Shown here piece after piece: positions 682-17,109 of a stretch of DNA of 32,860 nucleotides; positions within the stretch are counted from its first letter, which is position 1, and every line of letters begins with the position of its first letter. Below the pieces are notes generated by a model, which saw only the letters and a list, made by a program, of their open reading frames with translations, ran no database searches and was not told where the DNA came from. The stretch covers positions 1 through 32,860 of the forward strand of contig JAFGJS010000144.1 of assembly GCA_016928995.1 (NCBI GenBank), in the 5' to 3' direction. The translations under genes were made by a program, and so were the position numbers. The stretch comes from Candidatus Sumerlaeota bacterium. GTDB lineage: Bacteria; Sumerlaeota; Sumerlaeia; JAFGJS01.

Positions 682-1764
682 TTAGTTCTCCGCGCCGATG
701 GGTTCGATTTCGGCGGGCTCGATGGCTTCGGGTGTGACGGTCAGCGTGACGGTGACGGCTTCGGGTTTGGCTTCGCTGAGTTTGACTGCGGCGCGGATCG
801 GCTCCGGTGTTTCATCGGCCCAGATGGCTTCCACAGCCACCTGACCGGTGAAATCCATCGTTTCATCCAGCGGCGTGCGGGGCTTGAACTTGATGTATTC
901 GCGTTTGATTTGGTTGAGCAGTCGCACGGGACCGGTGGCCAGCGCCTGGCCTTCTTCGGGCAGCGCGCTGATTTTCACTTTTTGCGAGAGCGTGCTGATG
1001 CGGATTTGAACGTTCGCGATGCGCCGTTCGCCCATTTTTTCCGCGATGGGCGCGTTGTATGACACGGCGATGCTCGCCGCGGGATCAATGTCGCGTTTAT
1101 CCGGATCGAAAAGACTCAGTCCTGGAGGAATGCTGACGTTGACTTTCCCTTTGAGTTCGCTGCTTGCGTTTGTCACCGAGATTGAATCGGTTTTCAGCGC
1201 AATTTGCCCCGTGACTGGATCGGTCCATTGCTTAAGCGCGCTGGCGCTGCCCGTAAGCCAGATTTCCGCCGGATCAAGCGCGATGCCGCCGGCGATTTCA
1301 TAGTCGGGCGCGGGTTGGCCTTGAGCTTCCGGTTGAATCACCCCGCGCGCCAATCGCCAACGCGACAGCAGGCGCACCTCGCGTGGATTTTCGATCTCGC
1401 GGACGATCACCACGTCCGGAACGCCCTTGCGTTGGATCATGCTGGGATAGACGGGATAGACGGATTCGCGGAATTCATCGACGCCGGCTTTGCGCTTGAG
1501 TCCATCCAACTCGACGCGCAACGAGAAGTTCGCTTTGTCGATCCAGCGAGCGTATGTTTTGGGATAATGCACGGCCACTCGCGCTTCCAGCGTTTCAGCC
1601 GATATTTCGATTTCCGGCATGGCTTCTTCAAAGACGATCGGTATGCGCAGATAGGAGGTCTCCACGTCGCCTTGCTTGGCGATGTACCAGATAATGAAGG
1701 CGATCGCCAGCGAGGCGATGATCATCAACGCGGAATCCGTGGCGTAGCGTTCGGACGTTTTCAT
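682..1764 (-). CDS. cdaR: YbbR-like/CdaR regulator of diadenylate cyclase
   Basis: 360 residues with one N-terminal membrane anchor (about residues 12-28) and a long extracytoplasmic part with the loose beta-rich repeats of YbbR domains. In firmicutes the YbbR protein CdaR binds and modulates the membrane diadenylate cyclase CdaA; the same role is inferred here from the gene pair. The start codon overlaps the cdaA stop as TAATG (A of ATG at 1764 is the last base of TAA), which indicates translational coupling. The C-terminus is rich in Glu, Pro and Val. YbbR domains diverge quickly, so the family call rests on anchor topology, size and position more than on sharp motifs. Confidence 0.82.
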   Translation of the reverse strand: MKTSERYATDSALMIIASLAIAFIIWYIAKQGDVETSYLRIPIVFEEAMPEIEISAETLEARVAVHYPKTYARWIDKANFSLRVELDGLKRKAGVDEFRESVYPVYPSMIQRKGVPDVVIVREIENPREVRLLSRWRLARGVIQPEAQGQPAPDYEIAGGIALDPAEIWLTGSASALKQWTDPVTGQIALKTDSISVTNASSELKGKVNVSIPPGLSLFDPDKRDIDPAASIAVSYNAPIAEKMGERRIANVQIRISTLSQKVKISALPEEGQALATGPVRLLNQIKREYIKFKPRTPLDETMDFTGQVAVEAIWADETPEPIRAAVKLSEAKPEAVTVTLTVTPEAIEPAEIEPIGAEN

Positions 1765-2582
1765 TATTCCAGTTCCTCCGACGTCACCGCCTGGTTCAGC
1801 GTGTTGCGCAGTTCATCCGGTGAGAGTCCGCGTTCCAACTGGCCGCGCGTGGCGATGGAGATGATGCCGGTCTCCTCGCTCACTATGATCACGATCGCGT
1901 CGGTCTCCTCGCTCAGGCCGACGGCGGCGCGATGCCGCGTGCCGAGGTCGCGCCCGAGGGTTGTCGTTTCGCTGAGCGGCAAAATCGCTCCGGCGGCCAC
2001 GATCCGGTCGTTGCGGATCACTGCCGCGCCGTCGTGCAGCGGCGTGCGATTGGTGAAGATCGTGCGCAGCACGGCGTCGCTCACGGTGCAGTCGAGCAGC
2101 GTGCCGGTGTCGGCGTAAACTTTCAGCGAATCGCGGCGCTCCACGGCGATCAAAGCGCCGACCTTGCGTTTGGCCATCAGCGCGGCCGCGCTGACGATCT
2201 CGTCCACATATTCAATGTTGGACGAGAAAATCGCGCGAAACAGCCGCACTTGCCCCAGTTCGATCAACGCGGATTTGAAGTCTTGCTGGAAGATCACCAC
2301 GAAGACCAAGACGATGATGATCCAGAAGCGTTCGAAGATCAATGAAAGGGCGGAAAGGTTCATCAGGCTGGCAAGGAAATAGATCATGAACGAACCGAAG
2401 ATCATGGCGACGAGGCCGCGCAAGGCCATCGGCGAGCGTGTGCGGCGAAGCAGATTCATCAAGGTGTAAAACAACGCCGCGACCAGCGCGATGTCGACTA
2501 AATCCGCCAGATGAATGCCGCGCAACGTCACCCAAAAATCACGAATCACGCCATTCGCCTTTCTTGCGGCCCATCGCCGCAT
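1764..2582 (-). CDS. cdaA: Diadenylate cyclase CdaA (membrane type)
   Basis: Makes cyclic di-AMP from two ATP, a second messenger that controls potassium and osmolyte balance and cell-wall homeostasis. The 272-residue protein has the CdaA layout: three hydrophobic helices in residues 29-98, then a DAC (DisA_N) domain with both signature motifs, DGA at 184-186 (PLHDGAAVIR) and RHR at 216-218 (GTRHRAA). Length matches the family. The sequence around the catalytic motifs is intact, so it should be active. It lies between folP (33 nt upstream) and ybbR (1-nt overlap), a common arrangement in bacteria, and is probably co-transcribed with both. Start at ATG 2582 gives a short basic cytoplasmic tail before the first helix. 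Confidence 0.95.
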   Translation of the reverse strand: MRRWAARKANGVIRDFWVTLRGIHLADLVDIALVAALFYTLMNLLRRTRSPMALRGLVAMIFGSFMIYFLASLMNLSALSLIFERFWIIIVLVFVVIFQQDFKSALIELGQVRLFRAIFSSNIEYVDEIVSAAALMAKRKVGALIAVERRDSLKVYADTGTLLDCTVSDAVLRTIFTNRTPLHDGAAVIRNDRIVAAGAILPLSETTTLGRDLGTRHRAAVGLSEETDAIVIIVSEETGIISIATRGQLERGLSPDELRNTLNQAVTSEELE

Positions 2583-2615
2583 GATTGCCGATAACTTGCA
2601 CGCTTGCCACTATTC

Positions 2616-3479
2616 CTATTCTGTGCTGGAAATCAGCAGCGCCGCCATGTCCAACGCGCGCCGGGCGGCTGCCACGTCGTGCACCCGGAAAATCGACGCG
2701 CCGCGCAGCAACGCCGCAACGTTCGCCGCGAGGGTGGCTTCCAGCCGTTGATCGACTTCCAGCCCCAGCGCCATGCCGATGAACGATTTACGCGACGCTC
2801 CGATCAGCAGGGGATAGCCGGATTCCGCAAAGACATCCGCCCGCCGGATCAGCTCCAGATTGTGCTCCAGCGTTTTGCCGAAGCCGATGCCTGGATCGAT
2901 GGCGATGCGATCTTGCGCCACTCCCGCGTCCATCGCGACCTTAGCGCGCTGCAGCAGGAAATCCAGGATTTCGCCGACCACGTCGTCATAACGCGGTTCG
3001 CGCTGCATCGTGCCGGGTTCGCCCAGCATGTGCATGATCACGCAGCCTGCCCCGGTCTCCGCTAGCAGTTCAGGCATCTTCGGATCGCGAAGGCCGTTCA
3101 CATCATTGACGATGCACGCTCCGGCGCGCAAGGCTTCCCTCGCTACCTCCGCTTTGCGCGTGTCGATGGAAATCGGCGCATCGGGGCGCGCGGCGCGCAG
3201 CCGTTCGATCACCGGAATCGTGCGCCGCAGTTCCTCCTCCGTGGAGACTCCGGCCGCGCCGGGCCGCGTCGATTCGCCGCCAATGTCAATGATATCCGCC
3301 CCTTCTTCCAGCAAGCGCAACGCTGCGTCAACGGCTTCCTGCGCGCCGTTCAAACGGCCGCCGTCGCTGAATGAATCGGGCGTGACGTTTAGAATGCCCA
3401 TCACCACCGGACGCATTTCCGGTCTGCGCCGTTCCTTGCCGGGACATTCAAACTGATGCGTTCCGCATTGCCAGATCAT
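2616..3479 (-). CDS. folP: Dihydropteroate synthase
   Basis: Condenses 6-hydroxymethyl-dihydropterin pyrophosphate with p-aminobenzoate in folate synthesis; the target of sulfonamides. 287 residues, usual length. All family signatures are present: MGILNVTPDSFSDGG (27-41), GGESTRPGA (67-75), SIDTRK (104-109), NDVNG (125-129), DPGIGFGKT (195-203), GASRKSF (227-233) and RVHDV (265-269). The N-terminal WQCGTHQF segment also fits the family, supporting ATG 3479 as the start. It lies 18 nt after the STAS gene and 33 nt before cdaA, so it looks like the second gene of a four-gene operon. Confidence 0.96.
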   Translation of the reverse strand: MIWQCGTHQFECPGKERRRPEMRPVVMGILNVTPDSFSDGGRLNGAQEAVDAALRLLEEGADIIDIGGESTRPGAAGVSTEEELRRTIPVIERLRAARPDAPISIDTRKAEVAREALRAGACIVNDVNGLRDPKMPELLAETGAGCVIMHMLGEPGTMQREPRYDDVVGEILDFLLQRAKVAMDAGVAQDRIAIDPGIGFGKTLEHNLELIRRADVFAESGYPLLIGASRKSFIGMALGLEVDQRLEATLAANVAALLRGASIFRVHDVAAARRALDMAALLISSTE

Positions 3480-4336: not shown

Positions 4337-6976
4337 ATGAACATTGACGATTCACATGATAGCGCCAATGCCTCCATGCTGCTGATCGTCGACGGCAAAC
4401 CTGAAGAATCGGGACTGGCCAGTCAGATCATCAGCAAAGGCAATGCCTGCAAAGCCTACTCCGATGTCGCGCAGGGCATTGAGTGGGCGCAGCTGGAAAA
4501 ACCGGATGTCATCATCATTGACGAAAGATGCGCGCGAATGTCCGCATTGGAAGCCGGACGTCTGCTGAAAGCCAAGGTTCCGTATATTCCGCTGGTGCTT
4601 TACACGGAAGATCCCGAGTCGGATGCGACGCGCGAGTGTCTGGAGATGGGCGGCTATGAGATCGTCATCCTCAAACAGCATTCGATTTCTCTGGCGCTGG
4701 GGCAGATTGCCGCCCTGCTGCGCACTTCCAGCCAGATCAAGCAGTTGATGGAAAACAACCGTCGCCTGAACCGTTTATCCGTGCAGGATCCGCTGACGGG
4801 CTTGTTCAATCACCGGCACCTGCTGGATTGGCTGGATATTGAATTCAAGCGTTCGGACCGCAACGCGGAGCCGCTTTCCTGCATTATGATCGACATCGAT
4901 CATTTTAAAATGATCAACGATTCCTACGGCCACAAGTATGGCGATTTTGTGCTGAAGACATTTTCGCAGATCATTCAGTTCAACATCCGCAAGGTGGACA
5001 TTGTCGGGCGTTATGGCGGCGAGGAGTTTCTGGCGATTCTTCCCGCCACGGACCTGCACGGAGCGATCAATCTGGCGGAAAAGCTGCGCCGCATCATCGA
5101 GAATCATTCCTTTCGCGAGGGCATGTTCGAGACAAACCTGACAGCGAGTTTCGGCGTGGCTTCAACGAGCGACGAGCGGGTGGCCAGCGCCGATCAACTG
5201 CTGGCGATGAGCGACAAGGCGCTCTACATCAGCAAGGAATCCGGCCGCAACCGCGTCAGTTCCGTGACCGACGTCGATTCCGTTCCGGTCAGCGAGAACC
5301 GGAAAAAGACGATGATGATCGATCCGAAACGGAGAATCATCCATTGTCTGACGCAGTATCTGGACCGCTCGCAATCGATCGACTCAACTTTGCGAGCCGA
5401 TGGATTTCAGGTTTTGCAATCGTCGTCGGCGGAAACCTACATTGAGAACATCCGGCAAATCACATCGGATATTCTGCTGATCGACGCCAATCGTCAGGAA
5501 GAAGATTGGGCTATGCTGGAGAAAGTCATCCCGCAGTATTTGAAGCAGAACAACGCCACGCTGATACTGATGCATGAAGATCATGAGGCGCCCAAGCCTC
5601 TCGGTATTCTGCAGCGCACGCCGCGCTCGTTAGTCCACATCGTCCCGCTCAGCCGGACGGCGAAAGAGATCAAGACGCTGGTGAAGTTCAAGAATCTTGA
5701 GGCTGATCTGCGCGAAAGCAACATGCGGCTGAAGGCGATGCAGCGGAAGTTGATTCGAAGCGAACGGATGAAGTCGCTCGGAGAAATGTCCAATGGCGTG
5801 GCGCACGAGCTGAACAACGTGCTGAGCATCATTCTCGGGCGCGCGCAAGTGCTGAGCAAGGGCACGTCCGACGCGAAATTGCGCGAAGGGCTGGATCTCA
5901 TCGCGCAATCCGCGCTTGACGGCTCCAAAACCTTGCGCCGGATTTCCGAGTATTTCCGCATTGAAAGCCCCGGGCAGTTGGAAACGTTGCATCTCAGCCA
6001 GATTCTATCTTCCTGCCTTGAATTCTCGAAGGTGCGCTGGCGTGACGAGGCGCATCTCAAAGGCATCAATTACGACATTGTCTTCGAGGTTCCGACTGAA
6101 ATGGAGGCATGGGGAAGCGAGCCGGAGCTTTGCGAGGTTTTTACGAACATCATCTTCAATGCGCTGGACGCCATGCAGGACGGCGGCGTGCTGAGCATCA
6201 TCGCCCGGACGATCGGCGAAGAGCATCGCGTCACGATTCGCGACACGGGCAGCGGCATGTCCGAGGAAGTCAAGAGCCGCATTTATGATCCTTTCTTCAC
6301 CACGAAAGACGAGAAGGGGAGCGGCCTGGGAATGAATGTCGTGCAGAACATCGTCTCGCGCCATCGCGGCCGCATCGAAGTCGAAAGTGAGGAAGGGCTT
6401 GGCTCCGAATTTCACATTTACCTGCCGAAATATACTGGCCAGGTTATGGAACTCCCCAGCATCATCAGCGCTGCTCCGCCTGAGCCGGTTGAGCGAAGGA
6501 GATTCGAACCCCCGAAACGGACGACCGCTGAACCGGCGGCCGCTGAAATGGCGGTTGTTGAACCGGCGACTGCGGCGAAGCCTGACAAGGGCGAATCGTT
6601 GCACGTCCTGATCGTCGATGACGAAGAGGCGATCTTGCAGGTCTTTTATGACATCCTGGCCGATTCGAATTATGACGTCGATACGGCCAACAGCGGCGCC
6701 GATGCGCTGAAACTGCTGGATGAAAACACCTATCAGGTGATCATCACCGACCTGGGCATGCCTGAAGTTTCAGGTTGGGACGTGGCGCGGCACGCCAAGG
6801 AGACGCATCCGCGATGCAAGGTGGTGCTTGCCTCGGGTTGGGGCGACAACTACAAGAAATCCTCGTTGCAAAACAAAGGGATCGACCATATTCTGCCCAA
6901 GCCTGTCGGCATTCAGGCGCTGCTGTCCATGATGGATACGATCGAGAAGCAACTTGCCGATGATCAGGGCGAATAG
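4337..6976 (+). CDS. Hybrid signalling protein: REC, GGDEF, REC-like, histidine kinase, REC
   Basis: 879 residues with no membrane segment, so a cytoplasmic sensor. Domain order: an N-terminal receiver (about 14-128) with Asp62 as likely acceptor, Thr90 and Lys113; a diguanylate cyclase domain (about 148-310) with active-site GGEEF at 227-231, metal-binding Asp186 and Asp188, and an intact inhibitory I-site RKVD at 218-221; a degenerate receiver-like domain (about 332-450); a coiled linker; HisKA with the phospho-His490 in GVAHELNN; HATPase_c with N-box Asn604/Asn608, DTGSG at 636-640 and GSGLGM at 661-666; a Pro/Ala-rich linker (710-750); and a canonical receiver with Asp761/762, Asp805, Ser833 and Lys855. 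Both c-di-GMP synthesis and His-Asp phosphotransfer therefore look active in one chain, an unusual pairing. No strong Shine-Dalgarno sequence precedes the ATG. Confidence 0.9.
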   Translation: MNIDDSHDSANASMLLIVDGKPEESGLASQIISKGNACKAYSDVAQGIEWAQLEKPDVIIIDERCARMSALEAGRLLKAKVPYIPLVLYTEDPESDATRECLEMGGYEIVILKQHSISLALGQIAALLRTSSQIKQLMENNRRLNRLSVQDPLTGLFNHRHLLDWLDIEFKRSDRNAEPLSCIMIDIDHFKMINDSYGHKYGDFVLKTFSQIIQFNIRKVDIVGRYGGEEFLAILPATDLHGAINLAEKLRRIIENHSFREGMFETNLTASFGVASTSDERVASADQLLAMSDKALYISKESGRNRVSSVTDVDSVPVSENRKKTMMIDPKRRIIHCLTQYLDRSQSIDSTLRADGFQVLQSSSAETYIENIRQITSDILLIDANRQEEDWAMLEKVIPQYLKQNNATLILMHEDHEAPKPLGILQRTPRSLVHIVPLSRTAKEIKTLVKFKNLEADLRESNMRLKAMQRKLIRSERMKSLGEMSNGVAHELNNVLSIILGRAQVLSKGTSDAKLREGLDLIAQSALDGSKTLRRISEYFRIESPGQLETLHLSQILSSCLEFSKVRWRDEAHLKGINYDIVFEVPTEMEAWGSEPELCEVFTNIIFNALDAMQDGGVLSIIARTIGEEHRVTIRDTGSGMSEEVKSRIYDPFFTTKDEKGSGLGMNVVQNIVSRHRGRIEVESEEGLGSEFHIYLPKYTGQVMELPSIISAAPPEPVERRRFEPPKRTTAEPAAAEMAVVEPATAAKPDKGESLHVLIVDDEEAILQVFYDILADSNYDVDTANSGADALKLLDENTYQVIITDLGMPEVSGWDVARHAKETHPRCKVVLASGWGDNYKKSSLQNKGIDHILPKPVGIQALLSMMDTIEKQLADDQGE

Positions 6977-7127
6977 CAGCCGGAGCAGGGATGAGGATGG
7001 CGCCGTCACGGCTGATGCATCCCGCGCTGAAGGAAATCCGGTCATCTTTCAATCGCGAACAACCGATATAGTGATCAGAACAGGCATGCTCCGCTTACGA
7101 ATGGATGCGAGGTTTTACGCTGGAATC

Positions 7128-7712
7128 ATGATACGGCGAACTGCGGCATTTTTGATGCTTATGGCCATGTTGACGCCGGCGATAGGCGAGCCGGATGCGG
7201 CGACGAGCGTCACGCTGGAAACGATCTCCACGCAGGCGCCGTCGGAAACGTTGATTCTTGACCTGGGGACGACGGAGCCGTTTGCCATCGATACTATCAG
7301 CGCGATCCTGCATGATCCTCCGCTGATTACGCCAACATCGCCTGTTTTAACGGTCACGTCCGGCACGGCCACGTCGGACTCGCTCAGCATGCCGGGCGAC
7401 GGCGAAACCAGCGGATCGCATCAGCGTTTTATCTCGCTGTTGCCTCCGCCATTTCCGCCGCCGATGAATGATGATCTACTCACCTCCTTCAGCGCGATCA
7501 TCGACGGCAAGGTGCTAATCAACCAGGCCACTGAAGAGGAACTGCAAAAGGTTTTGTTCATCGACGCGGAACGCGCCCGGGCCATCGTGCAGTATCGAGC
7601 GGTGATCGGCGAATTCCGCAAAGCCGAGGATCTGGAGAAAGTCTTCGGCATCGACGAACAGCTCAGCAGTGTGCTCGTGCCGAAGATACTTTTTGAACCT
7701 CCGCCGCGATAA
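7128..7712 (+). CDS. Secreted ComEA-like helix-hairpin-helix protein
   Basis: From ATG 7128 the protein is 194 residues: signal peptide (MIRRTAAFLMLMAMLTPAIG), a Thr/Ser/Pro-rich middle that includes a run of prolines, and at about 130-188 a helix-hairpin-helix domain with INQATEEELQ, AIVQYR and GEFRKAEDLEKVFGID. This closely follows the ComEA DNA-uptake domain, in which conserved glycines of the first hairpin (normally G-I-G) are here FID. ComEA binds double-stranded DNA in the periplasm during natural transformation. In-frame starts exist at 7086 and 7101 and the frame is open back to 6954, but only 7128 or 7101 gives a neat signal peptide and the upstream codons look non-coding. It lies between the hybrid kinase and the DnaE-like gene. 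Confidence 0.72.
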   Translation: MIRRTAAFLMLMAMLTPAIGEPDAATSVTLETISTQAPSETLILDLGTTEPFAIDTISAILHDPPLITPTSPVLTVTSGTATSDSLSMPGDGETSGSHQRFISLLPPPFPPPMNDDLLTSFSAIIDGKVLINQATEEELQKVLFIDAERARAIVQYRAVIGEFRKAEDLEKVFGIDEQLSSVLVPKILFEPPPR

Positions 7713-7849: not shown

Positions 7850-10800
7850 GTGCCCGAAACGAATTTCGTTCATCTGCGCGCGCACAGTCATTACAGCATC
7901 GGCAAAGCTTTGCCGTCGCAGGAGGAGCTTGTCCAGCGCGCCGTGGAATTGCAGCTGCCGGCCCTGGCCTTGACGGATGAGAATTCGCTGGCCGGCGCGA
8001 TGCAGTTCACCCGCCTTTGTCTGGATCAGGGGATTCAGCCGATCCTTGGCGCAGACCTGAGCGTGCTTCCTTTTCGCGGCGGCGAGGATGACGGCCGCAC
8101 GTATAAAATGACCTTGCTGGTCGAGTCGGAATTGGGCTTCCGCAACCTGACGCGACTGGTCTCCCGCGCGACGCATTCACCGACGGTTCAGCAACCGCTG
8201 GGCGTGCCGTTCGATGTCCTGCGCGAGAATTCATCCGGGTTGATCTGCCTGATCGGCGGCGAAGGCAGCGAGTTCTTCAAACTTCTGCGCGAAAAAGAAG
8301 TGGACGTGACGGTGCAATACCTCAATGTCCTGGCGGAGATTTTTCCGCAGGAGAGTCTTTTCTTCGAACTGCAGTATCACCTGGATCATGATGTCCGCAT
8401 CTTGAACGAATGCGCGGTGGAACTGGCCGAGTTCCTCGAGATTCCGCTCGCGGCCACGCAAGACATCCGCTATCTGGACCGTCAGGACGAGCTGGCGCGG
8501 ATGTTCCTGCAACGCACGGCGCCGCCGCCGATCCTCAGCGAGCATCGCTGGCAGGATCGCACCAGCTATCACTTCGCCTCGCCGGAAGAGCTGCGCGCGC
8601 ATTTTTCCAGCCGTCCGCAGGCTATCGATTCCACGCGCCGCATCGCCAAGCGCTGTCAGTTCACGCTCAGCCAGCGCAAGAAGGCCGGACCGACGCCGGA
8701 CTTTGAGCGTGGCGCGGACAGCGATTCGTTTCTCTGGAACGTCGCCTTTGAAAGGGCGATGGAGCGCTTCACGGAACTCGATGATTCGATCAAGGGGCGC
8801 TTGAATGAGGAATTCGAGGTGATCAAGCGCGCCGGCCTGTCGAGTTATATCCTGCTGCTGCGGGAGATCGCCCAGTACCTCGATGATGCTCACATCTCGC
8901 GCGGCGTCGGCCAGGGCCATCTGGTCACCAGCCTGATCGCATACGTGCTGGGACTCACGCAGATCAACCCGTTAGAGCACAGCTTGCGCTTCAGCCGCGA
9001 TTACCTGCTGGATGATAATTCACCGATCCTGGCGATTGAGGTTTCCGCGTTGAACGTGGAGGCTCTGCTGCGTCATATCCGGGAGGAATACGGCGACAAG
9101 CACGTCTGTTTCGCCGGCGAATATCAGCCGTGGGATCGCAAGACCTTGATCCAAAAAATCTGCCGTTGGGCCGGCGCCAGTCAGCGCCGCACAGACGCGC
9201 TTTCGGAACATGCCGGACGGATTCCCAAAAAGGATCTCGAAGCGGAGTGGAAGGATTTATTCAAGGACGGCGGCAACATTTCGATCACCAAGCCGGAGGT
9301 GATTCACTATATCTTCGGCCGGCTTTACCGCGCTCCCGTTTCGCTCAAAGTGCGCACGAGCGAGCTGTTCATCTCCAGCGAAAACCTCGACCCGATTGTG
9401 CCGCGTACCTTCAGCGCCAGCAGCAAGGTCGGCGTTTCGCAGATGCCCTCTGATGACTGCAAGGCGCTTGGGCTGCCCCGGCTGCACATCCTGACCAATC
9501 ACTCGCTGGAAATTCTCGACCGGTCCTCGGAGTGGGTGCGACGCGAGTCGAACGAGCATTTCGATTTGAACAACATTCCCAGCGACGACGCGGCCGCGTT
9601 CGAGATGCTGAGCCAGGGCCGCACCGTCGGCATCCTCACGCTGGACACGCCGACCATGTCCATGCTGCTGCGCCAGCAAAAGCCGCGCAGCCTGCGCCAG
9701 CTGATCAAGATCAAGTCGATGGATCCAGCGCCGCGCCAATTAGTCAAGTCGTCCTACGAATTGATGGCGGACATCCCGAACTGCCTGCTCGCGTATCGCT
9801 GCGCGTATATCAAGGCGAATTATCCGGCGTCGTTTTTCACCGCGTTGCTCGATCTGGCCAGCCGTCATATCAAAACGCTGCAGGCGGCGATTCACGAGCT
9901 GCCGGTTTTTGGCGTGCGGCTCGAGCCGGTGAACATCAACCTCAGCGCGTTTCATTTTCAGCAGAGCGACAACCGCATTCAGGCCGGGCTGTGCGTAGTG
10001 AAGCAGCTCGGCGAGAAGGCGGCCGAGGAAATCATGACCGTGCGCAAGAGCGGACCGTTCAGCGGATTGCTCGATCTCTGCCGCCGCACGGATCCGCGTT
10101 TGATCAAGCAGCCGGTGATCGTCAATCTGATCAAGTCCGGCGCGCTCGATTGCTTCGGGCTGCATCGCTCGCAGCTGCTGGAGATGCTGCCGCAGGCGCT
10201 GAAGATGACGCGCAGTGAACGCGCGACGCAAGATGAGGACGATGCGACTCCGAGTCTGTTCGACCTGCCCGTGGAGGAAGAGCCGAAGAACGAGGCGGAT
10301 CTGGCCGCGCCGATCGAGGAACTGCCCGGACCGGAACTCGTGCGCAATGAAATCCAGGCGGCGGGGTATATGCTCACCGAGCCCGTGATCGAACCCTGGC
10401 GCGAGCTGCTGATCAGCAGCCACATCGCCTGGCCGCCGCGCATGGAACCACGGCTCGTGGGGCAGGACGTGTATTTCTGCGGCATGCTGGATGCAATGGC
10501 CGAGGAGTTTCCCGAAGTCGAGGAGAACGCCGTGGCGCTGGCCAGTTTCCAAGGCGAGCTTGCGCTGTTGGCGCAGCGCTTTGTCGAAACCGCGCGGCGC
10601 GTGATGGAAAAGCAAATCCCGGTGTTGATCGGCGGCCGCGTGATCCAGAAAAACGGCGTGCTTTTTCTCAAGGCGCACTGCCTCTATGAACTGGCCATGA
10701 TGCAGAAACGCGTCGAGCAGATCAAACGCATCCGCATTGATCTGGCCGGTGAAAACCGCCATACGCTTAATAGCATTTGGAGCGTGTTGCACCGTTTCAA

Positions 10801-11026
10801 GGGCGAGACAGCGGTTGAGATCGAAAACTGCGGCGCGCGCTTTGCCGGCTGGACGATCAAGAAGATCGAAAAGCATAAAGTGCTGTTCACGCCGCCGTTG
10901 TATTTCGAACTGGGCAAGATCCTGCCGCGCGAGAACATCACCCTGTTCGACGAAAACGACGAGCCGCAGCCCTATCAATTCATGCCGCCCGCCCATGGCG
11001 CGATTGAACCCGATGAATCCGCCTGA
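7850..11026 (+). CDS. DnaE-like protein, predicted catalytically dead Pol III alpha homologue
   Basis: 1058 residues against about 1160 for E. coli DnaE. The order is that of Pol III alpha: PHP domain (FVHLRAHSHYS at 6-16, ALTDENSLAG at 40-49), palm, fingers remnant, helix-hairpin-helix region (AGLCVVKQLGEKAAEEI, 712-728) and IKSGALDCFG (761-770), then a degenerate OB-type C-terminus. The catalytic residues are lost: where alpha has PDxDxDF this protein has PILAIEV (392-398); the GRGS-type motif reads GVGQGH (352-357); and the third aspartate motif (F-D-F-L-G) reads RLHIL (544-548). The segment of roughly 110-120 residues with the YQEQ and RRAMGKK motifs is absent between about 622 and 640. 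PSLFDLP at 801-807 recalls a clamp-binding motif. The start is GTG 7850, the only start codon after the in-frame stop at 7814. It is intact, so a maintained non-polymerase role is inferred. Confidence 0.82.
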   Translation: MPETNFVHLRAHSHYSIGKALPSQEELVQRAVELQLPALALTDENSLAGAMQFTRLCLDQGIQPILGADLSVLPFRGGEDDGRTYKMTLLVESELGFRNLTRLVSRATHSPTVQQPLGVPFDVLRENSSGLICLIGGEGSEFFKLLREKEVDVTVQYLNVLAEIFPQESLFFELQYHLDHDVRILNECAVELAEFLEIPLAATQDIRYLDRQDELARMFLQRTAPPPILSEHRWQDRTSYHFASPEELRAHFSSRPQAIDSTRRIAKRCQFTLSQRKKAGPTPDFERGADSDSFLWNVAFERAMERFTELDDSIKGRLNEEFEVIKRAGLSSYILLLREIAQYLDDAHISRGVGQGHLVTSLIAYVLGLTQINPLEHSLRFSRDYLLDDNSPILAIEVSALNVEALLRHIREEYGDKHVCFAGEYQPWDRKTLIQKICRWAGASQRRTDALSEHAGRIPKKDLEAEWKDLFKDGGNISITKPEVIHYIFGRLYRAPVSLKVRTSELFISSENLDPIVPRTFSASSKVGVSQMPSDDCKALGLPRLHILTNHSLEILDRSSEWVRRESNEHFDLNNIPSDDAAAFEMLSQGRTVGILTLDTPTMSMLLRQQKPRSLRQLIKIKSMDPAPRQLVKSSYELMADIPNCLLAYRCAYIKANYPASFFTALLDLASRHIKTLQAAIHELPVFGVRLEPVNINLSAFHFQQSDNRIQAGLCVVKQLGEKAAEEIMTVRKSGPFSGLLDLCRRTDPRLIKQPVIVNLIKSGALDCFGLHRSQLLEMLPQALKMTRSERATQDEDDATPSLFDLPVEEEPKNEADLAAPIEELPGPELVRNEIQAAGYMLTEPVIEPWRELLISSHIAWPPRMEPRLVGQDVYFCGMLDAMAEEFPEVEENAVALASFQGELALLAQRFVETARRVMEKQIPVLIGGRVIQKNGVLFLKAHCLYELAMMQKRVEQIKRIRIDLAGENRHTLNSIWSVLHRFKGETAVEIENCGARFAGWTIKKIEKHKVLFTPPLYFELGKILPRENITLFDENDEPQPYQFMPPAHGAIEPDESA

Positions 11027-11073
11027 TTTTCATCTTTGTTGCAGCGTCACACTTTCTCTTGCTCATGCCGCGG

Positions 11074-11098
11074 CCTTGCCTTATGGTGACCGGCAAGG
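11074..11098. repeat. Short inverted repeat before the response regulator
   Basis: CCTTGCC at 11074-11080 and GGCAAGG at 11092-11098 with an 11-nt spacer, in the 105-nt gap between the DnaE-like gene and the sigma-54 activator. No T run follows, so it is not a good terminator. It could be an operator or chance. Confidence 0.25.
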
Positions 11099-11131
11099 TT
11101 GTCGTCAAGAATCATCGGAGCTGCTTGTCGT

Positions 11132-12487
11132 ATGGACTCGAAAGTCAAAGTGATGGTCGTCGAAGACGAGAAGAACGCCCGCGAAGGCATGGGCTGGTTT
11201 CTGGAGAGCCTGGGGTACGAGCCGATCCTCGTGGCGGAGGCGGAGAGCGCGCTGAAGATCCTCGGCGACGCTGTCGTGGACGTGCTGCTCACCGATCTCA
11301 AGATGCCTGGCATGGACGGCATGCAGCTGCTCGAGCGCGTGCAGGAGGGCTGGCCCGAACTGCCCACGATTATGATCACCGCGCACGGCACGGTGGAGAC
11401 GGCGGTGCGCGCGATGCAGCTCGGCGCGGCCGATTATCTCAACAAACCGGTGATGCTCGACGAGCTGCGCGTGAAGATCGAGAAGGCGCTGAAGAGCCGC
11501 TCGATGGAGCGCGAGAACATCGAACTGCGCGAGCGCGTAGAGAAAAACTTCGGTTTTGAAAACATCATCGGCCAGAGTCCGGCGATGCAGGAGGTTTTCG
11601 GCGTGGTGCGGCAGGCGGCGAACTCGCGCGCCAGCATCCTGATCACCGGCGAAAGCGGCACGGGCAAGGAGCTCATCGCGGGCGCGCTTCATCAGCATTC
11701 GCCGCGCAAGAGCAAGCCGTTCGTCAAGGTCAATTGCGGCGCGCTGTCCGAGACGCTGCTGGAGAGCGAACTCTTCGGACATGAGAAGGGCGCCTTCACG
11801 CACGCTGTAGCTCAGCGCGCCGGGCGCTTCGAACTGGCTGACGGCGGATCGATCCTGCTCGACGAGATCGGCGAGACGCAGCCGGAGTTTCAGGTCAAGC
11901 TGCTGCGCGTACTGCAGGAAGGGGAGTTCGAGCGCGTCGGCGGGCAGGACACGATCAAGACCGACGTGCGCATCATCGCCGCGACGAATCAGGATTTGGA
12001 GCGGCTGGTCAAGGACAGGAAATTCCGCGAGGATTTATACTACCGACTCAACGTAGTGCGGATTCACCTGCCGCCGTTGCGCGAACGGCAGGAGGATGTC
12101 GCGCTGCTGGTCAATCATTTCGTGCAGGAACTCTGTGCGGAGAACGGCAAGGAGCCGCTGGGCGTTTCGCCCAAGGCCATGGCGCTGTTGCAGAACTACG
12201 ACTGGCCGGGGAACGTGCGCGAGCTGCGCAATGTGATCGAGGCGGCGGTGGTGATGTCATCCGGCCGCGAGCTCACGCCGCAGAGCCTGCCCGAGCGTAT
12301 GCGTCAGGAGGCCGGCGCCAGCCCTTATGTGCGCCTTCGTCTTGGCACGACGCTGCGCGACACTGAACGCGAATTGATCCGCGCCACTCTGGCCGCGAAT
12401 AAAGGCAACCGCGCCAAAACCGCCCGCACCCTCGACATCGGCCGCAAAACCCTTTATCGTAAGATCGAAGAATACGGTTTGGAATAG
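11132..12487 (+). CDS. NtrC-family sigma-54-dependent response regulator
   Basis: 451 residues: receiver domain (Asp55 acceptor, Glu11/Asp12, Thr83, Lys105), AAA+ domain with Walker A GESGTGKE (173-180), Walker B in GGSILLDEIGE, sensor-type RREDLYYRLNV-like segment (here FREDLYYRLNV), and a C-terminal Fis-type helix-turn-helix (NKGNRAKTARTLDIGRKTLY). It should activate RNA polymerase carrying sigma-54 after phosphorylation. The sigma-54 contact loop, normally GAFTGA, reads GAFTHA (220-225). ATG 11132 gives a standard receiver N-terminus; the frame is open up to a TTG at 11099 but that extension lacks family support. No dedicated histidine kinase is adjacent; the hybrid kinase at 4337, three genes upstream on the same strand, is a possible partner. 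Confidence 0.92.
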   Translation: MDSKVKVMVVEDEKNAREGMGWFLESLGYEPILVAEAESALKILGDAVVDVLLTDLKMPGMDGMQLLERVQEGWPELPTIMITAHGTVETAVRAMQLGAADYLNKPVMLDELRVKIEKALKSRSMERENIELRERVEKNFGFENIIGQSPAMQEVFGVVRQAANSRASILITGESGTGKELIAGALHQHSPRKSKPFVKVNCGALSETLLESELFGHEKGAFTHAVAQRAGRFELADGGSILLDEIGETQPEFQVKLLRVLQEGEFERVGGQDTIKTDVRIIAATNQDLERLVKDRKFREDLYYRLNVVRIHLPPLRERQEDVALLVNHFVQELCAENGKEPLGVSPKAMALLQNYDWPGNVRELRNVIEAAVVMSSGRELTPQSLPERMRQEAGASPYVRLRLGTTLRDTERELIRATLAANKGNRAKTARTLDIGRKTLYRKIEEYGLE

Positions 12488-12651
12488 CCAAGCCACGATG
12501 ATATGTTTAACGTCTGAAGTGCGAATGTAACTATTATTCATTTCGATCAAGTCGAATCATATTGATAAGATCTTGTTGAATCATGGGATTATGTGGAACG
12601 CCTACATAGTCAATCGAGCGTCGATCGTATCGTTTAAGGCTGGTAGTCACG

Positions 12652-13395
12652 ATGGAAATGTATCCTAAGATATCTTATAAATTATGTGATATTTTGGTGT
12701 TTTTCTCGACCGTGCTTTATCTTGTTATTATTGCGTTTTGTTGGAATTGGCATCCCATACAATATGATAATCCGCCTAAAGCGTTTCTTAATGGAATTTT
12801 TTTTCTACCATATTGCAATGGTATATTGATATTATACAGATCGGGTGATTTGCTTATACGGGTAAAAGAAAATATCATACATGGACATCGATTGAGTCGT
12901 AGCCAATTCATAAAGGATATTGTGTTTTCTTTTTTTCCAGTAATTATTTTGAGTCCTCTATTTATCATTTATCATTTTATCTATCCATACGGTGCGCAAG
13001 GAGAATTAGGCTTAATCGGGATCACAGAACACAAGGCCATTTTATATTTTGCTTCCGGTATAATATCGTTACTATACTCGATTTCACTATTGGGAAAGTT
13101 CTTTGAGATTGCGCTAACAAATGATATTCATATGTTTGATGTTTTGAATGAGAACTTGGTGCAGGCCTTATTGACTCCTTTATGGCCGTTATTTCCATTA
13201 TTTATAGTGATGCTGATGTCATTCGGAAATCCAGGCTTTGGTTATCGGGATTTGTATTTTTTCGATATACCATTTTTGCTATTTTTTTTAATTGTAATAT
13301 TCCGTCTGTTAAAAAATTGGTCTCGATGCATTAGAATATTAAAAAAGTATCGTGCGTTATCCGAGGATGCTGACAATTGTAATCATACACTGTGA
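12652..13395 (+). CDS. Orphan membrane protein, six predicted helices, AT-rich gene
   Basis: 247 residues of unknown function with hydrophobic segments near residues 14-34, 46-60, 90-110, 128-146, 175-195 and 203-222, and basic loops between them. I do not recognise the family. Base use differs sharply from its neighbours: in 12661-12720 only 17 of 60 bases are G or C, and the codons are A/T-ending throughout, which suggests recent acquisition or relaxed selection. The ORF is long for such AT-rich DNA and the helices are well formed, so it is probably a real gene. No clear ribosome-binding site precedes ATG 12652. Size and helix number recall the membrane protein at 27174, but no shared motif is clear. 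Confidence 0.65.
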   Translation: MEMYPKISYKLCDILVFFSTVLYLVIIAFCWNWHPIQYDNPPKAFLNGIFFLPYCNGILILYRSGDLLIRVKENIIHGHRLSRSQFIKDIVFSFFPVIILSPLFIIYHFIYPYGAQGELGLIGITEHKAILYFASGIISLLYSISLLGKFFEIALTNDIHMFDVLNENLVQALLTPLWPLFPLFIVMLMSFGNPGFGYRDLYFFDIPFLLFFLIVIFRLLKNWSRCIRILKKYRALSEDADNCNHTL

Positions 13396-13454
13396 TGAAA
13401 CGATTTTAACCCATGCCCGATTCTTTGCAAACGATTGGGAAATGCACCGGTGTT

Positions 13455-15077
13455 TTATTCGTGCGAATACGCATCATCGTCAACGGCTTGCCAATTTGGT
13501 TTGTCCGCAGCTGTTTTGCCCGCCGTGCTTTGCCATGCTGGTTTGCTGGTCGCGCCTCCTTGCGAGGCGGATTGGCCGGATAGGACGGCTTGCACGAGTT
13601 CGTCTTCCGGCACGGTGACAGGGCCGGTGATCAATTCAGGCACGTTGTAGGTCTTGAGATAGGCGTCGTAAAAAGCCGGGTCTTTCTGCGGCAGGATGAA
13701 CGGCTTGTGCTCGCGTCCCTCGGCGTCGATGTAGCTGAAAAACGGCCGGGCCAGCAGTTCATTTTCGCGCTTGCTGCTGAAGACGATCCAGCGCGAGTTG
13801 CTCGACCAGCAGTGCCACGAATCGGTCTTGTCGCTGTTGCACTCCAGCCGCCGATGCTTGCCGCTTTCCAGGTCCATCATGTATAAATCGCAACTCGCCT
13901 GATTGATCGGAAAGCCGCCGTAGTCCGACATGCAGAAAAGCAGGAAACGGCCGTCCGGCGAAGTTCTGGGTTCGAGGATGGTCTTGTGGGTTTCCGCCGC
14001 CGTAAGGAGCTTTTCCGGCTGGCCCCATGTGTTGTATTCCACGTCGTATGGTACGCGCATCAGGTCGAATTTGATTCTCATGATGTCCACTGGATCCGGC
14101 ATTTCATCCGGGTTCCAAAATGCCTGGGCGCTGCAATAGTAGAGGGCTTTGCCATCGGCCGACCAGCAGGGGAAGGTCTCCAGATGGTCGGTGGTCGTAA
14201 GGTCTGGCGAGGAGGAAGTCGCGCCAGTTTTGCCGTCGGCGATGGCCACATTGGACCAGATGTCGTAGACGTCCCGGATCTCCGGTCCGCATGAGCGGAA
14301 GTATTGTCGCGGTTTGCCGTACGCGAAGGCGACAGACAAGCCATCCCGGCGCCAGGAGAGGTAGCCGGGCGGTCCCGGAACGAGCTCCGATTTGGTCTGT
14401 AACCGGGCCGCATGGCCGTCGCGCGCGACGATCATCCCTGAAGTGGCTTTGATGTTGATCGGACCCGGCCGGACGTGAAACGAAAAACAGTCGGGGTTGT
14501 TGTCCCTGAAGCTGTGGCAATTGATGCAACCGCCGAACGTGTCATTGGTCACGATCGGCGATTCGTCGTAGTTCTCCAGGTTCCGCTGGTAGATCCCGAT
14601 CTTGCGGTAGAAGTTGCCCACGGGTCCCAGCAGTCTATAGGCCAGATGCGAATCGATTGTTTCCTGGGCGACGGTGTTTTCGATTTTTTCAAAATGGGTC
14701 CAGCGTCCATCCTGCGTCTTGACATAGATGTCCAACCCGATCTTGCCGCCGCGATTGGCCTGAAGCAATTCGCGCCACGGTTCCTCTGGTATGACGACGG
14801 TAGGATTGCGCGAGGCAATGAGGATATCCTCGCCTTGATCGCCGTGAATCCGTGTGCGGTATTCAATTCCTGGCTCTTCCACGATGAAGTTCAGCGGGGC
14901 GATATTCGGCGGAATGACGGTCGCGTTGTAGTCGGGACGTATATGTGGAAGGCGGCCAGGTTCGGAACATTCTTCCGGCAACGTTCGGCTGGTTGGCCGG
15001 CACCCGGCGGCAATGAGCAACGCCAGCGTGGCCGCCGCCGTCATCGTGAAAACCAGTTTTCGGCTTCGTTTACTCAT
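13455..15077 (-). CDS. PD40/TolB-like lipoprotein with a CxxCH haem-type motif
   Basis: 540 residues. The N-terminus is a signal peptide ending in LIAAGC, with Cys26 the likely lipidated residue. A single CxxCH motif (CINCH, 184-188) followed by SFRDNNPD is the covalent haem c site of a mono-haem cytochrome, or a lookalike, within a segment seen in TolB-like proteins of Bacteroidota and PVC genomes. The second half has PD40 beta-propeller repeats: LSWRRDGLSVAFA, CWSADGKALYYC, RTSPDGRFLLF and CWSSNSRWIVFSS. The C-terminal 40 residues are low complexity. Start ATG 15077 overlaps the end of the upstream membrane-protein gene by 8 nt and has GGAG at 6-nt spacing inside it, so the two are coupled and probably work together at the cell envelope. 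Substrate unknown. Confidence 0.82.
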   Translation of the reverse strand: MSKRSRKLVFTMTAAATLALLIAAGCRPTSRTLPEECSEPGRLPHIRPDYNATVIPPNIAPLNFIVEEPGIEYRTRIHGDQGEDILIASRNPTVVIPEEPWRELLQANRGGKIGLDIYVKTQDGRWTHFEKIENTVAQETIDSHLAYRLLGPVGNFYRKIGIYQRNLENYDESPIVTNDTFGGCINCHSFRDNNPDCFSFHVRPGPINIKATSGMIVARDGHAARLQTKSELVPGPPGYLSWRRDGLSVAFAYGKPRQYFRSCGPEIRDVYDIWSNVAIADGKTGATSSSPDLTTTDHLETFPCWSADGKALYYCSAQAFWNPDEMPDPVDIMRIKFDLMRVPYDVEYNTWGQPEKLLTAAETHKTILEPRTSPDGRFLLFCMSDYGGFPINQASCDLYMMDLESGKHRRLECNSDKTDSWHCWSSNSRWIVFSSKRENELLARPFFSYIDAEGREHKPFILPQKDPAFYDAYLKTYNVPELITGPVTVPEDELVQAVLSGQSASQGGATSKPAWQSTAGKTAADKPNWQAVDDDAYSHE

Positions 15078-17109
15078 TCATTTCTCCTAAATGCAGCCAA
15101 TAATAATACGGGAAATAGCTGCCTTCCAGCTGGCGCGCCATGGCGGCTCCCACTTCCTTGCTGGGTGTGCTTTGTTTCTTCAGAAACGCCTCGTAGCGTA
15201 GATATTTATTGAATGTCGTCTCGCTGATCTTCCGGCCGCGGAAAAAGACTCCCGATTGGTTGTTCACAAGCTCCTCGGGATGTTTCGACGCGTAAATGAT
15301 CGCCGCTTCTTCGTAAAGCGTTGGAATCCCCGGATAGGAAAAGTTATCCAGCACGAAAAACAATTCGACCACGCCGTCCACATTGCCGGCTATCAGGCAC
15401 TGCGCCATCAGGTATTCATAGGCCATTTTATTATGGTCATTTTGCCTCAGCTGACTCAGCAGGATGGCGGAGAAATTAATTCCGAACCTGTCGTCGGATG
15501 AGTATTTGCCCGTTTGATGCAGGTCATCTTTCGTGATCATCAGCCGGCGGATTTGCTGAATTTCCTCGTCATCGCTCAGGTCCGGATCCTTGGCGAGGCG
15601 TTCCAGGTATGCTTGCGCCCAGCTGCGCCAGACAAGGTCATCTCGCAATACGTTAAGGTACGTTTTCGCGGCGGATGGCTGGCCTTTGATCATCTTCACA
15701 AACGCCATGCGCTTATACGCCCCGCCGGTGGGCCATTTCTCCATGAATTCGATCAGTATATGTTCGGCCTCGTTGACGCGCCCCAATTCCAGGTACACGT
15801 CGCATGGTTTGTTGATCATTTGATTGGGTAGCCGCAGATAATTGATCAATGTCCAATTCTTGACGGATTGAGGGAAGAATAACATCTCATAAGGCAGACG
15901 CCCCGTGTGATACATCGCGAGATTGACATTATGATTCGCCTCAAGGGAGTTCTTGAATACCGGCCTGGGCAGCTCCCTGGCTTTTTTAAGCACATCCTCC
16001 CACATTTGATGATCGGTGCAGTAGTTGATTTCCAACAGCAACTTCTTGTTTCGATCCAACGTGTAAAATCCCGCCGCCGCCGCCGCTGCCAATATCAGGA
16101 GCGTCGATGCCGTCCAGCGAAACCATCCGAATCGATTTGCCGGTGCAATGGACTGTTCCGCGTCATTACGGGCCGCTTTTTTACGCTTTTTGTTTTTAGC
16201 CTCTTTCCGCGAGACTTTTTTGCCGAAGGTTCCACGAAGCTTTTGCCAGAATGTTCTGGCTGCATTACCGGCGGTCTCTCGATAAATGACAAACAGCATG
16301 CATGCGGGAAAGTAGCCATAAAGGAGCGCTAACTGCCAGACCGGAGGATAATTGAGCTTCGTTTCGAGAACTGGCGGCTGGAAATTCCGGGTAAACAGAT
16401 CGAATCGGATGAGGACTGCGTCAAGGCCGAATTTCACGGCGATGCCAATCAGCAGCATCAATGCTCCAGGCAGCCGCCGTTTTTCGGCCAGCGCTTCATG
16501 GATCACGCAGCATGCCGCAAAACAATAGTAATTGAATGCTCCCGTAAGGTGGTATACGACGATTGAAAGCGCGGTAAACAACGGCAGGCGCAGCCAGATT
16601 CGTGGCGATGGGATCCGAACCCAGCCGTTGGCGGCGGTCATGGCCAAGGCCAATCCGGCGCTTAACGACGTGTGGAAAAAATAGTAATCGTTATGCATCC
16701 CCACAAGAATGATGCCGGGAATGATCCACGTGCCGCCGATGTCCGCGCGGCCCGATGCGTTCATCAAGCCGATTGTTGAAACAAGCAGGAGCCATACGGC
16801 TGCGGCAAGCGCAAGCGCGCCCGGCCAGCCGAAGTAGCACAACTGCACCAGCAGGCTGTCCACCCACAGCAGCAATGTGCCGGGCCGGCCCGTGAAGTCC
16901 GTAAAAAAACGAAGGTTCCACAGGAAAAGACTCTCGCGCGCCTGGAAAATCATGCGCACGTCCAGTATGGCATAGAGGTATAAGGCAAAAAGGGCCACGA
17001 ATAAAAGGACACGAGGACGAAAGACAATGGCGCCTATTGTGCGTACGGATTGAAGTAAACGGCAGTGTTTTTTTGTTTGGGATGGCTGGCCTGAATTGAC
17101 AAATACCAT
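15070..17109 (-). CDS. DUF6057-like polytopic membrane protein with C-terminal helical-repeat domain
   Basis: 679 residues from ATG 17109, which is preceded by GGGAG at 17120-17124 with 10-nt spacing; the longer TTG start at 17169 adds 20 residues with no support. The first half is membrane-embedded, with about nine hydrophobic segments between residues 33 and 280, a very basic cytoplasmic loop (KKVSRKEAKNKKRKK) near 298-312, and a last helix at about 334-350. The second half (from about 352) is soluble and rich in paired helices like TPR proteins, with NLAMYHTGRLPYEMLFFPQ-type wording typical of the DUF6057 family. The family is found beside PD40/CINCH proteins, as here. Function is unknown. 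Confidence 0.78.
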   Translation of the reverse strand: MVFVNSGQPSQTKKHCRLLQSVRTIGAIVFRPRVLLFVALFALYLYAILDVRMIFQARESLFLWNLRFFTDFTGRPGTLLLWVDSLLVQLCYFGWPGALALAAAVWLLLVSTIGLMNASGRADIGGTWIIPGIILVGMHNDYYFFHTSLSAGLALAMTAANGWVRIPSPRIWLRLPLFTALSIVVYHLTGAFNYYCFAACCVIHEALAEKRRLPGALMLLIGIAVKFGLDAVLIRFDLFTRNFQPPVLETKLNYPPVWQLALLYGYFPACMLFVIYRETAGNAARTFWQKLRGTFGKKVSRKEAKNKKRKKAARNDAEQSIAPANRFGWFRWTASTLLILAAAAAAGFYTLDRNKKLLLEINYCTDHQMWEDVLKKARELPRPVFKNSLEANHNVNLAMYHTGRLPYEMLFFPQSVKNWTLINYLRLPNQMINKPCDVYLELGRVNEAEHILIEFMEKWPTGGAYKRMAFVKMIKGQPSAAKTYLNVLRDDLVWRSWAQAYLERLAKDPDLSDDEEIQQIRRLMITKDDLHQTGKYSSDDRFGINFSAILLSQLRQNDHNKMAYEYLMAQCLIAGNVDGVVELFFVLDNFSYPGIPTLYEEAAIIYASKHPEELVNNQSGVFFRGRKISETTFNKYLRYEAFLKKQSTPSKEVGAAMARQLEGSYFPYYYWLHLGEMNE

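Follow-up and report, generated by a model that had tools for sequence, protein, structure and literature searches.

The gene and its surroundings

The window, that is, the whole stretch of 32,860 nucleotides analysed here, is one contig (C33; JAFGJS010000144.1) of a Candidatus Sumerlaeota genome of 4.5 Mb in 161 contigs. An open reading frame on its forward strand, at 7850–11026, begins with GTG and runs for 1058 codons without an internal stop; its product is a C-family (DnaE) homologue by both sequence and fold, a paralogue of the α subunit of DNA polymerase III, and is referred to here as pseudo-DnaE. Pfam models for PHP, DNA_pol3_alpha, a shortened finger domain and HHH_6 match the frame in the order found in DnaE (E 3e-11 to 6e-29), which bears out the stop-free DnaE-like frame described in an earlier sequence-only reading of this DNA. 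The finger model is matched over the first 72 of its 166 positions. PRK05673 matches with an E-value of 5e-134, yet falls under the cut-off of that model, and TIGR00594 scores 413 bits, short of its cut-off of 434. The α subunits of T. aquaticus and E. coli can be aligned to the protein in stretches, interrupted at about residue 630.

The domains follow one another on the forward strand. The PHP domain (residues 5–270; 7862–8659) was assigned from PF02811, a nine-residue comparison and structural matches to PHP chains, and the palm/thumb region (residues 295–548; 8732–9493) from PF07733 and from hhalign against the canonical DnaEs of the class (probability 100). A tandem HhH domain is retained at residues 688–776 (9911–10177; PF14579; hhalign against canonical DnaE, probability 100). 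It is followed by the peptide TPSLFD (residues 800–805; 10247–10264), which resembles a clamp motif and lies in a disordered linker, and by an OB domain (residues 857–950; 10418–10699) supported by structural alignments to OB folds. The C-terminal domain (CTD; approximately residues 958–1040; 10721–10969) is of the τ-binding DnaE1 type: the hhalign alignment reaches the canonical C-terminus, and the T. aquaticus structure 3e0d aligns as far as residue 1044 of the model. Over the OB and CTD together, hhalign against canonical class DnaE gives a probability of 97.3 (E 1.8e-11).

The earlier reading had placed the gene in a run with a ComEA-like protein and two regulators. The ComEA-like protein, whose C-terminal part matches HHH_3, is indeed encoded just upstream (6954–7712, forward strand), but is not conserved there in relatives, and across the 36 neighbourhoods compared pseudo-dnaE has no neighbour that more than its close relatives share. 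The NtrC-type and hybrid regulators and the ComEA-like protein were thus rejected as operon partners and, because they are not conserved, carry no weight in what follows. In one subgroup a gene resembling those for peptidyl-prolyl isomerases, named from its sequence, lies directly 3′ of pseudo-dnaE. Elsewhere in the window, an open frame of 247 amino acids 3′ of the NtrC-type regulator (12652–13395, forward strand) has no Pfam match, and genes for YbbR-like, DisA_N/CdaA and dihydropteroate-synthase (Pterin_bind) proteins stand in a row on the reverse strand (682–3479), a common arrangement for the c-di-AMP cyclase. Searched at the DNA level, the region gave matches mainly to the NtrC-type gene. 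A defence system and a phage family were also considered and rejected: PADLOC gave no match, and the PHROG matches were mostly to DNA polymerase families.

Loss of the catalytic features

Alignment with the α subunits of T. aquaticus and E. coli places GVGQGH (residues 352–357; 8903–8920) at the GRGS motif, PILAIEV (residues 392–398; 9023–9043) at PDxDxDF, and RLHIL (residues 544–548; 9479–9493) at the motif of the third catalytic aspartate. The columns of E. coli D401, D403 and D555, together with that of D405, were used as the reference; pseudo-DnaE carries I393, A395 and H546 at the three catalytic columns and E397 at the D405 column, and aspartate occupies all four in the 19 canonical DnaEs of the class that were compared (19/19). 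After residue 630 (9737–9742), hhalign and the orthologue alignment show that a block of 100 residues is absent as one piece; it corresponds to residues 710–809 in the canonical DnaE frame of this genome, where YQEQVM and RKAMGKK are found. The three motif losses and the gap near residue 630 that had been read from the letters alone are therefore borne out by the alignments and by hhalign.

Each of the 30 orthologues compared has likewise lost both PDxDxDF and the finger block, and this recurrence of identical losses shows that they are due neither to chance nor to an assembly error. It had been asked whether alignment would place the active-site acids elsewhere; none of the 26 orthologues tabulated has acidic residues at all three catalytic columns. 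Judged from its sequence, pseudo-DnaE cannot make DNA, because it has neither the metal-binding aspartates nor the finger block for the incoming nucleotide. The metal site of the PHP domain reads RHKEDKGDR in the window protein, against HHDHEHCDH, so that the pattern of an active PHP exonuclease, HHDHEH(C/H)DH, is absent from it. Almost every member of the family has a broken site, although two (L004 and L012) retain eight of the nine ligands. PHP exonuclease activity should consequently be absent in most members.

Retained fold and docking parts

The AlphaFold model of pseudo-DnaE (pLDDT 86.7, pTM 0.83) has Pol III α chains as its nearest solved structures: 2hpi (Z 36.8 over 841 residues, rmsd 9.2), 2hqa (Z 36.5 over 755 residues, rmsd 5.2) and 3e0d (Z 31.9 over 876 residues, model residues 4–1044). 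The model thus predicts with confidence that an α-like fold is retained. The PHP fold is kept despite the RHKEDKGDR metal site; a metal-poor PHP domain with a structural role has a precedent in E. coli α (PMC3666897).

Mean identities within the pseudo-DnaE family were compared, domain by domain, with those within the canonical DnaEs of the same genomes. They fall from 0.68 in canonical DnaE to 0.33 in the family for the N-terminal palm, and from 0.55 to 0.22 for the thumb and palm. The HhH domain is the best kept in the family (0.44, against 0.53 in canonical DnaE), and the two sets are similar in the OB domain (0.26 against 0.28) and in the CTD (0.27 against 0.21). The drop in the palm, together with the parity in the OB and CTD, indicates weaker constraint on the catalytic core but not on the C-terminal docking end. 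The CTD is a feature of DnaE1 and DnaE3, with τ as its binding partner in DnaE1, and no DnaE2 has it (PMC3919608).

The clamp motif of α lies between the HhH and OB domains, at residues 920–924 in E. coli (PMC4703070). At the corresponding place in pseudo-DnaE, within a linker that is disordered in the AlphaFold model (pLDDT <50), F804 varies little across the family alignment (entropy 0.35 bits, against approximately 3 bits in its flanks), and the peptide is of an LF(D/G) type with variants such as SLFD, TLFD and QFFG. When scored as a clamp motif (Q at position 1, LF at positions 4–5), most members have LF or FF but only a minority have Q; the window protein reads TPSLF, with Thr at position 1. 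Since the glutamine is missing in most members, clamp binding may be weak. The earlier suggestion of a clamp-, DNA- or repair-associated scaffold nevertheless gains support from this conserved peptide for its clamp part.

Distribution, ancestry and selection

A profile of 30 sequences was searched against 39 genomes of the class (Sumerlaeia, BRC1) and approximately 347 others. Essentially full-length pseudo-DnaE is encoded in 35 of the 39 Sumerlaeia genomes. In the remaining four, one genome (G023), and probably another (G011), has fragments at contig ends, and the other two (G033 and G035) are 66% and 75% complete. The protein was found in none of the approximately 347 genomes outside the class, which comprise the phylum's other-class genome and the other phyla sampled; the best matches there are DnaEs that align only over profile positions 3–622, with scores no higher than 488 bits, whereas family members score 730 bits or more. 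Public contigs were also scanned, with a profile built from a subset of seven family sequences. Most of the 75 non-class loci have an intact PDxDxDF by pattern, and when the ten least clear were aligned the motif proved intact in all except L166.

The L166 locus, from a Candidatus Riflebacteria genome with two further C-family genes, encodes a DnaE-like frame of 821 residues (L166:2923–5385, forward strand; JADFXM010000058.1). It reads SNMYFDF for PDxDxDF, LLKLDL at the third-Asp motif and RKELGRKN for RKAMGKK, and retains YQEQ; it is possibly an independent, younger dead DnaE.

The pseudo-DnaE orthologues form a single clade (SH-aLRT 100), separate from the DnaE1 clade of the class (100) and from the active DnaE2-like copies. 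Across 17 genomes, their distances mirror those of canonical dnaE (r 0.78; none of 2000 permutations as high) at approximately twice the length. The single clade and the mirrored distances fit one origin before the radiation of the class, followed by vertical descent. In an AU test on a 26-row alignment, union of pseudo-DnaE with the canonical DnaE1 of the class was not rejected (p 0.142), and the family stands on a long separate branch; the class's own DnaE1 is a candidate ancestor.

In three close pairs, Nei–Gojobori dN/dS was 0.115, 0.108 and 0.093 for pseudo-dnaE, and canonical dnaE gave 0.098, 0.096 and 0.061, respectively; the values of two pairs are rough because dS is near or above 1. 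One further pair gave 0.43 (canonical 0.28), and another was saturated. By these sequence comparisons, pseudo-dnaE is shown to be old, vertically inherited and under purifying selection. The proposal that it is a maintained pseudo-polymerase is thus strongly supported by the intact orthologues across the class, by the low dN/dS of close pairs and by the lack of a full acid set; frame-breaking orthologues had been named as a check, and open full-length frames were found in nearly all genomes of the class.

Other C-family and Y-family genes

Another check named earlier was for a complete dnaE elsewhere in the genome. One is present on contig C108, with GPGRGS, PDFDIDF, YQEQ and RKAMGKK all in place. 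The genome search found no third C-family gene, although one might be missed at an assembly completeness of 92%. A minority of the class genomes have DnaE2-like copies, and none was found in that of the window. In two genomes of one genus (L201 and L202, in G009 and G016), the DnaE2-like gene lies in two separate frames and may be split or broken. One genome alone (G029, contig C132, approximately 8374–16320; L035 and L197) has Y-family and active DnaE2-like genes adjoining pseudo-dnaE in a convergent arrangement.

Possible roles of pseudo-DnaE

In sum, pseudo-DnaE is a catalytically dead paralogue of the α subunit of replicative Pol III, specific to the class and probably of DnaE1 type, and its function is most likely structural, within the machinery of replication or repair. 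More specifically, we give about an even chance to a non-catalytic accessory α that works beside the active DnaE1. Such a protein would dock on the sliding clamp and/or on τ of the clamp loader through the LF(D/G) peptide and the OB, CTD and HhH domains, and the docked dead α would organise or regulate the replisome. It might assist in polymerase exchange, occupy an extra α position, or protect or hand off the primer end, a role that can be likened to that of the dead half of eukaryotic Pol ε in its own replisome. The retention of the HhH domain, the peptide, the OB domain and the τ-type CTD argues for docking, and docking on τ in particular is favoured by the long DnaX open frames in most genomes of the class (mostly 580–790 codons), which have room for a τ-like extension. 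Against the accessory α stand the lack of a conserved neighbour gene, the loss of the clamp-motif glutamine in most members, the poor conservation of the CTD even in real DnaEs, and the differences in the C-termini of τ between lineages (PMC4703070).

The main rival, which we regard as unlikely, is a translesion adaptor similar to ImuB, in which the dead DnaE would sit on the clamp at lesions and recruit or regulate a Y-family or DnaE2-like polymerase. ImuB itself is a precedent for a dead polymerase that serves as a clamp adaptor (PMC3919608), Y-family genes are present in 36 of the 39 class genomes, and the neighbourhood in G029 brings candidate partners next to pseudo-dnaE. However, that arrangement is convergent and unique, so no conserved cassette exists; DnaE2-like copies are confined to a minority of the class genomes and were not found in that of the window; and pseudo-DnaE keeps the CTD, which DnaE2 does not have. 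Slightly less probable still is a DNA-binding scaffold away from the replisome, which would act in repair, recombination or DNA uptake through the HhH and OB domains. The high conservation of the HhH domain and the ComEA-like HhH protein encoded just upstream would suit such a scaffold, but this neighbour is not conserved, and a scaffold of this kind would not be expected to retain a clamp-motif-like peptide and a CTD.

A PHP nuclease that has lost its polymerase function would have a model in bacterial PolX, where some proteins have an inactivated polymerase site but retain the PHP site (PMC12926913), and the nearly complete metal sites of L004 and L012 agree with it; the site is lost in most members, however, including the window protein, so that we rejected a nuclease as the function of the whole family and consider this reading very improbable. 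In favour of a polymerase that is still active, with an unusual catalytic site, glutamate is common at the D405 column and at least one of the three catalytic columns is acidic in 13 of the 26 orthologues. This reading is hardly credible, however, since all three columns are acidic in none of the 26 and every orthologue compared lacks the finger block. A decaying pseudogene, to which the doubled evolutionary rate and the dN/dS of 0.43 in a more distant pair might point, is equally hard to credit and is already refuted by the intact frames across the class, alongside dN/dS values of about 0.1 in close pairs and a confident fold.

The accessory α thus remains our preferred reading. Its extension to the whole class, namely that Sumerlaeia run their replisome with a dedicated non-catalytic α-like subunit as a C-family counterpart of the dead half of Pol ε, is plausible, at somewhat less than even chances.

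Relation to known systems

Pseudo-DnaE shares with the DnaE1-type α subunits of T. aquaticus (2hpi, 3e0d) and E. coli (5fku, 2hnh) the domain order PHP–palm–fingers–HhH–OB–CTD (Z approximately 32–37), with a clamp motif, or in pseudo-DnaE a peptide resembling one, between HhH and OB, and differs from them in the absence of the catalytic aspartates, GRGS and the finger block of approximately 100 residues. ImuB resembles it in being a polymerase homologue that is dead yet retains a clamp-type peptide, but it belongs to a different polymerase family, and pseudo-dnaE forms no conserved cassette with an active partner. The C-terminal half of Pol2 in Pol ε, too, is a non-catalytic module that descends from a polymerase of replicative type and that selection has retained (PMC7308368, PMC6265327); it is, however, a eukaryotic B-family module fused to an active half, and its role has been shown, whereas that of pseudo-DnaE is one that we infer. 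Bacterial PolX with an inactivated polymerase site is a further case of a PHP-bearing homologue that has lost its polymerase function (PMC12926913), but it keeps the PHP exonuclease site that is broken in nearly all pseudo-DnaEs.

Dead polymerases are therefore already known in other families, and what would be new is a dead case in the C family. A 2013 survey of this family found the catalytic aspartates absolutely conserved, having admitted only proteins whose active site was intact (PMC3919608); a dead α could thus not appear in it. The accessible part of the 2026 survey of complete genomes describes inactive PHP and exonuclease domains, PolX and PolY, and in that part mentions neither a dead C-family group nor Sumerlaeota (PMC12926913). 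No description of a dead DnaE was found in the literature searched, which takes in few subscription papers, so that an earlier description is possible; the one study found there that pairs 'Sumerlaeota' with 'DnaE' concerns glacial microbial habitats. Because pseudo-dnaE genes resemble DnaE closely, they can pass as a second DNA polymerase III α and go unnoticed.

A dead replicase paralogue kept by selection throughout a class shows that pseudoenzymes can arise from the replicative polymerases of bacteria as well, as has occurred in the B and Y families. It also offers a natural separation-of-function variant for the non-synthetic work of α, i.e., docking on the clamp and clamp loader, polymerase exchange and the occupancy of more than two α positions.
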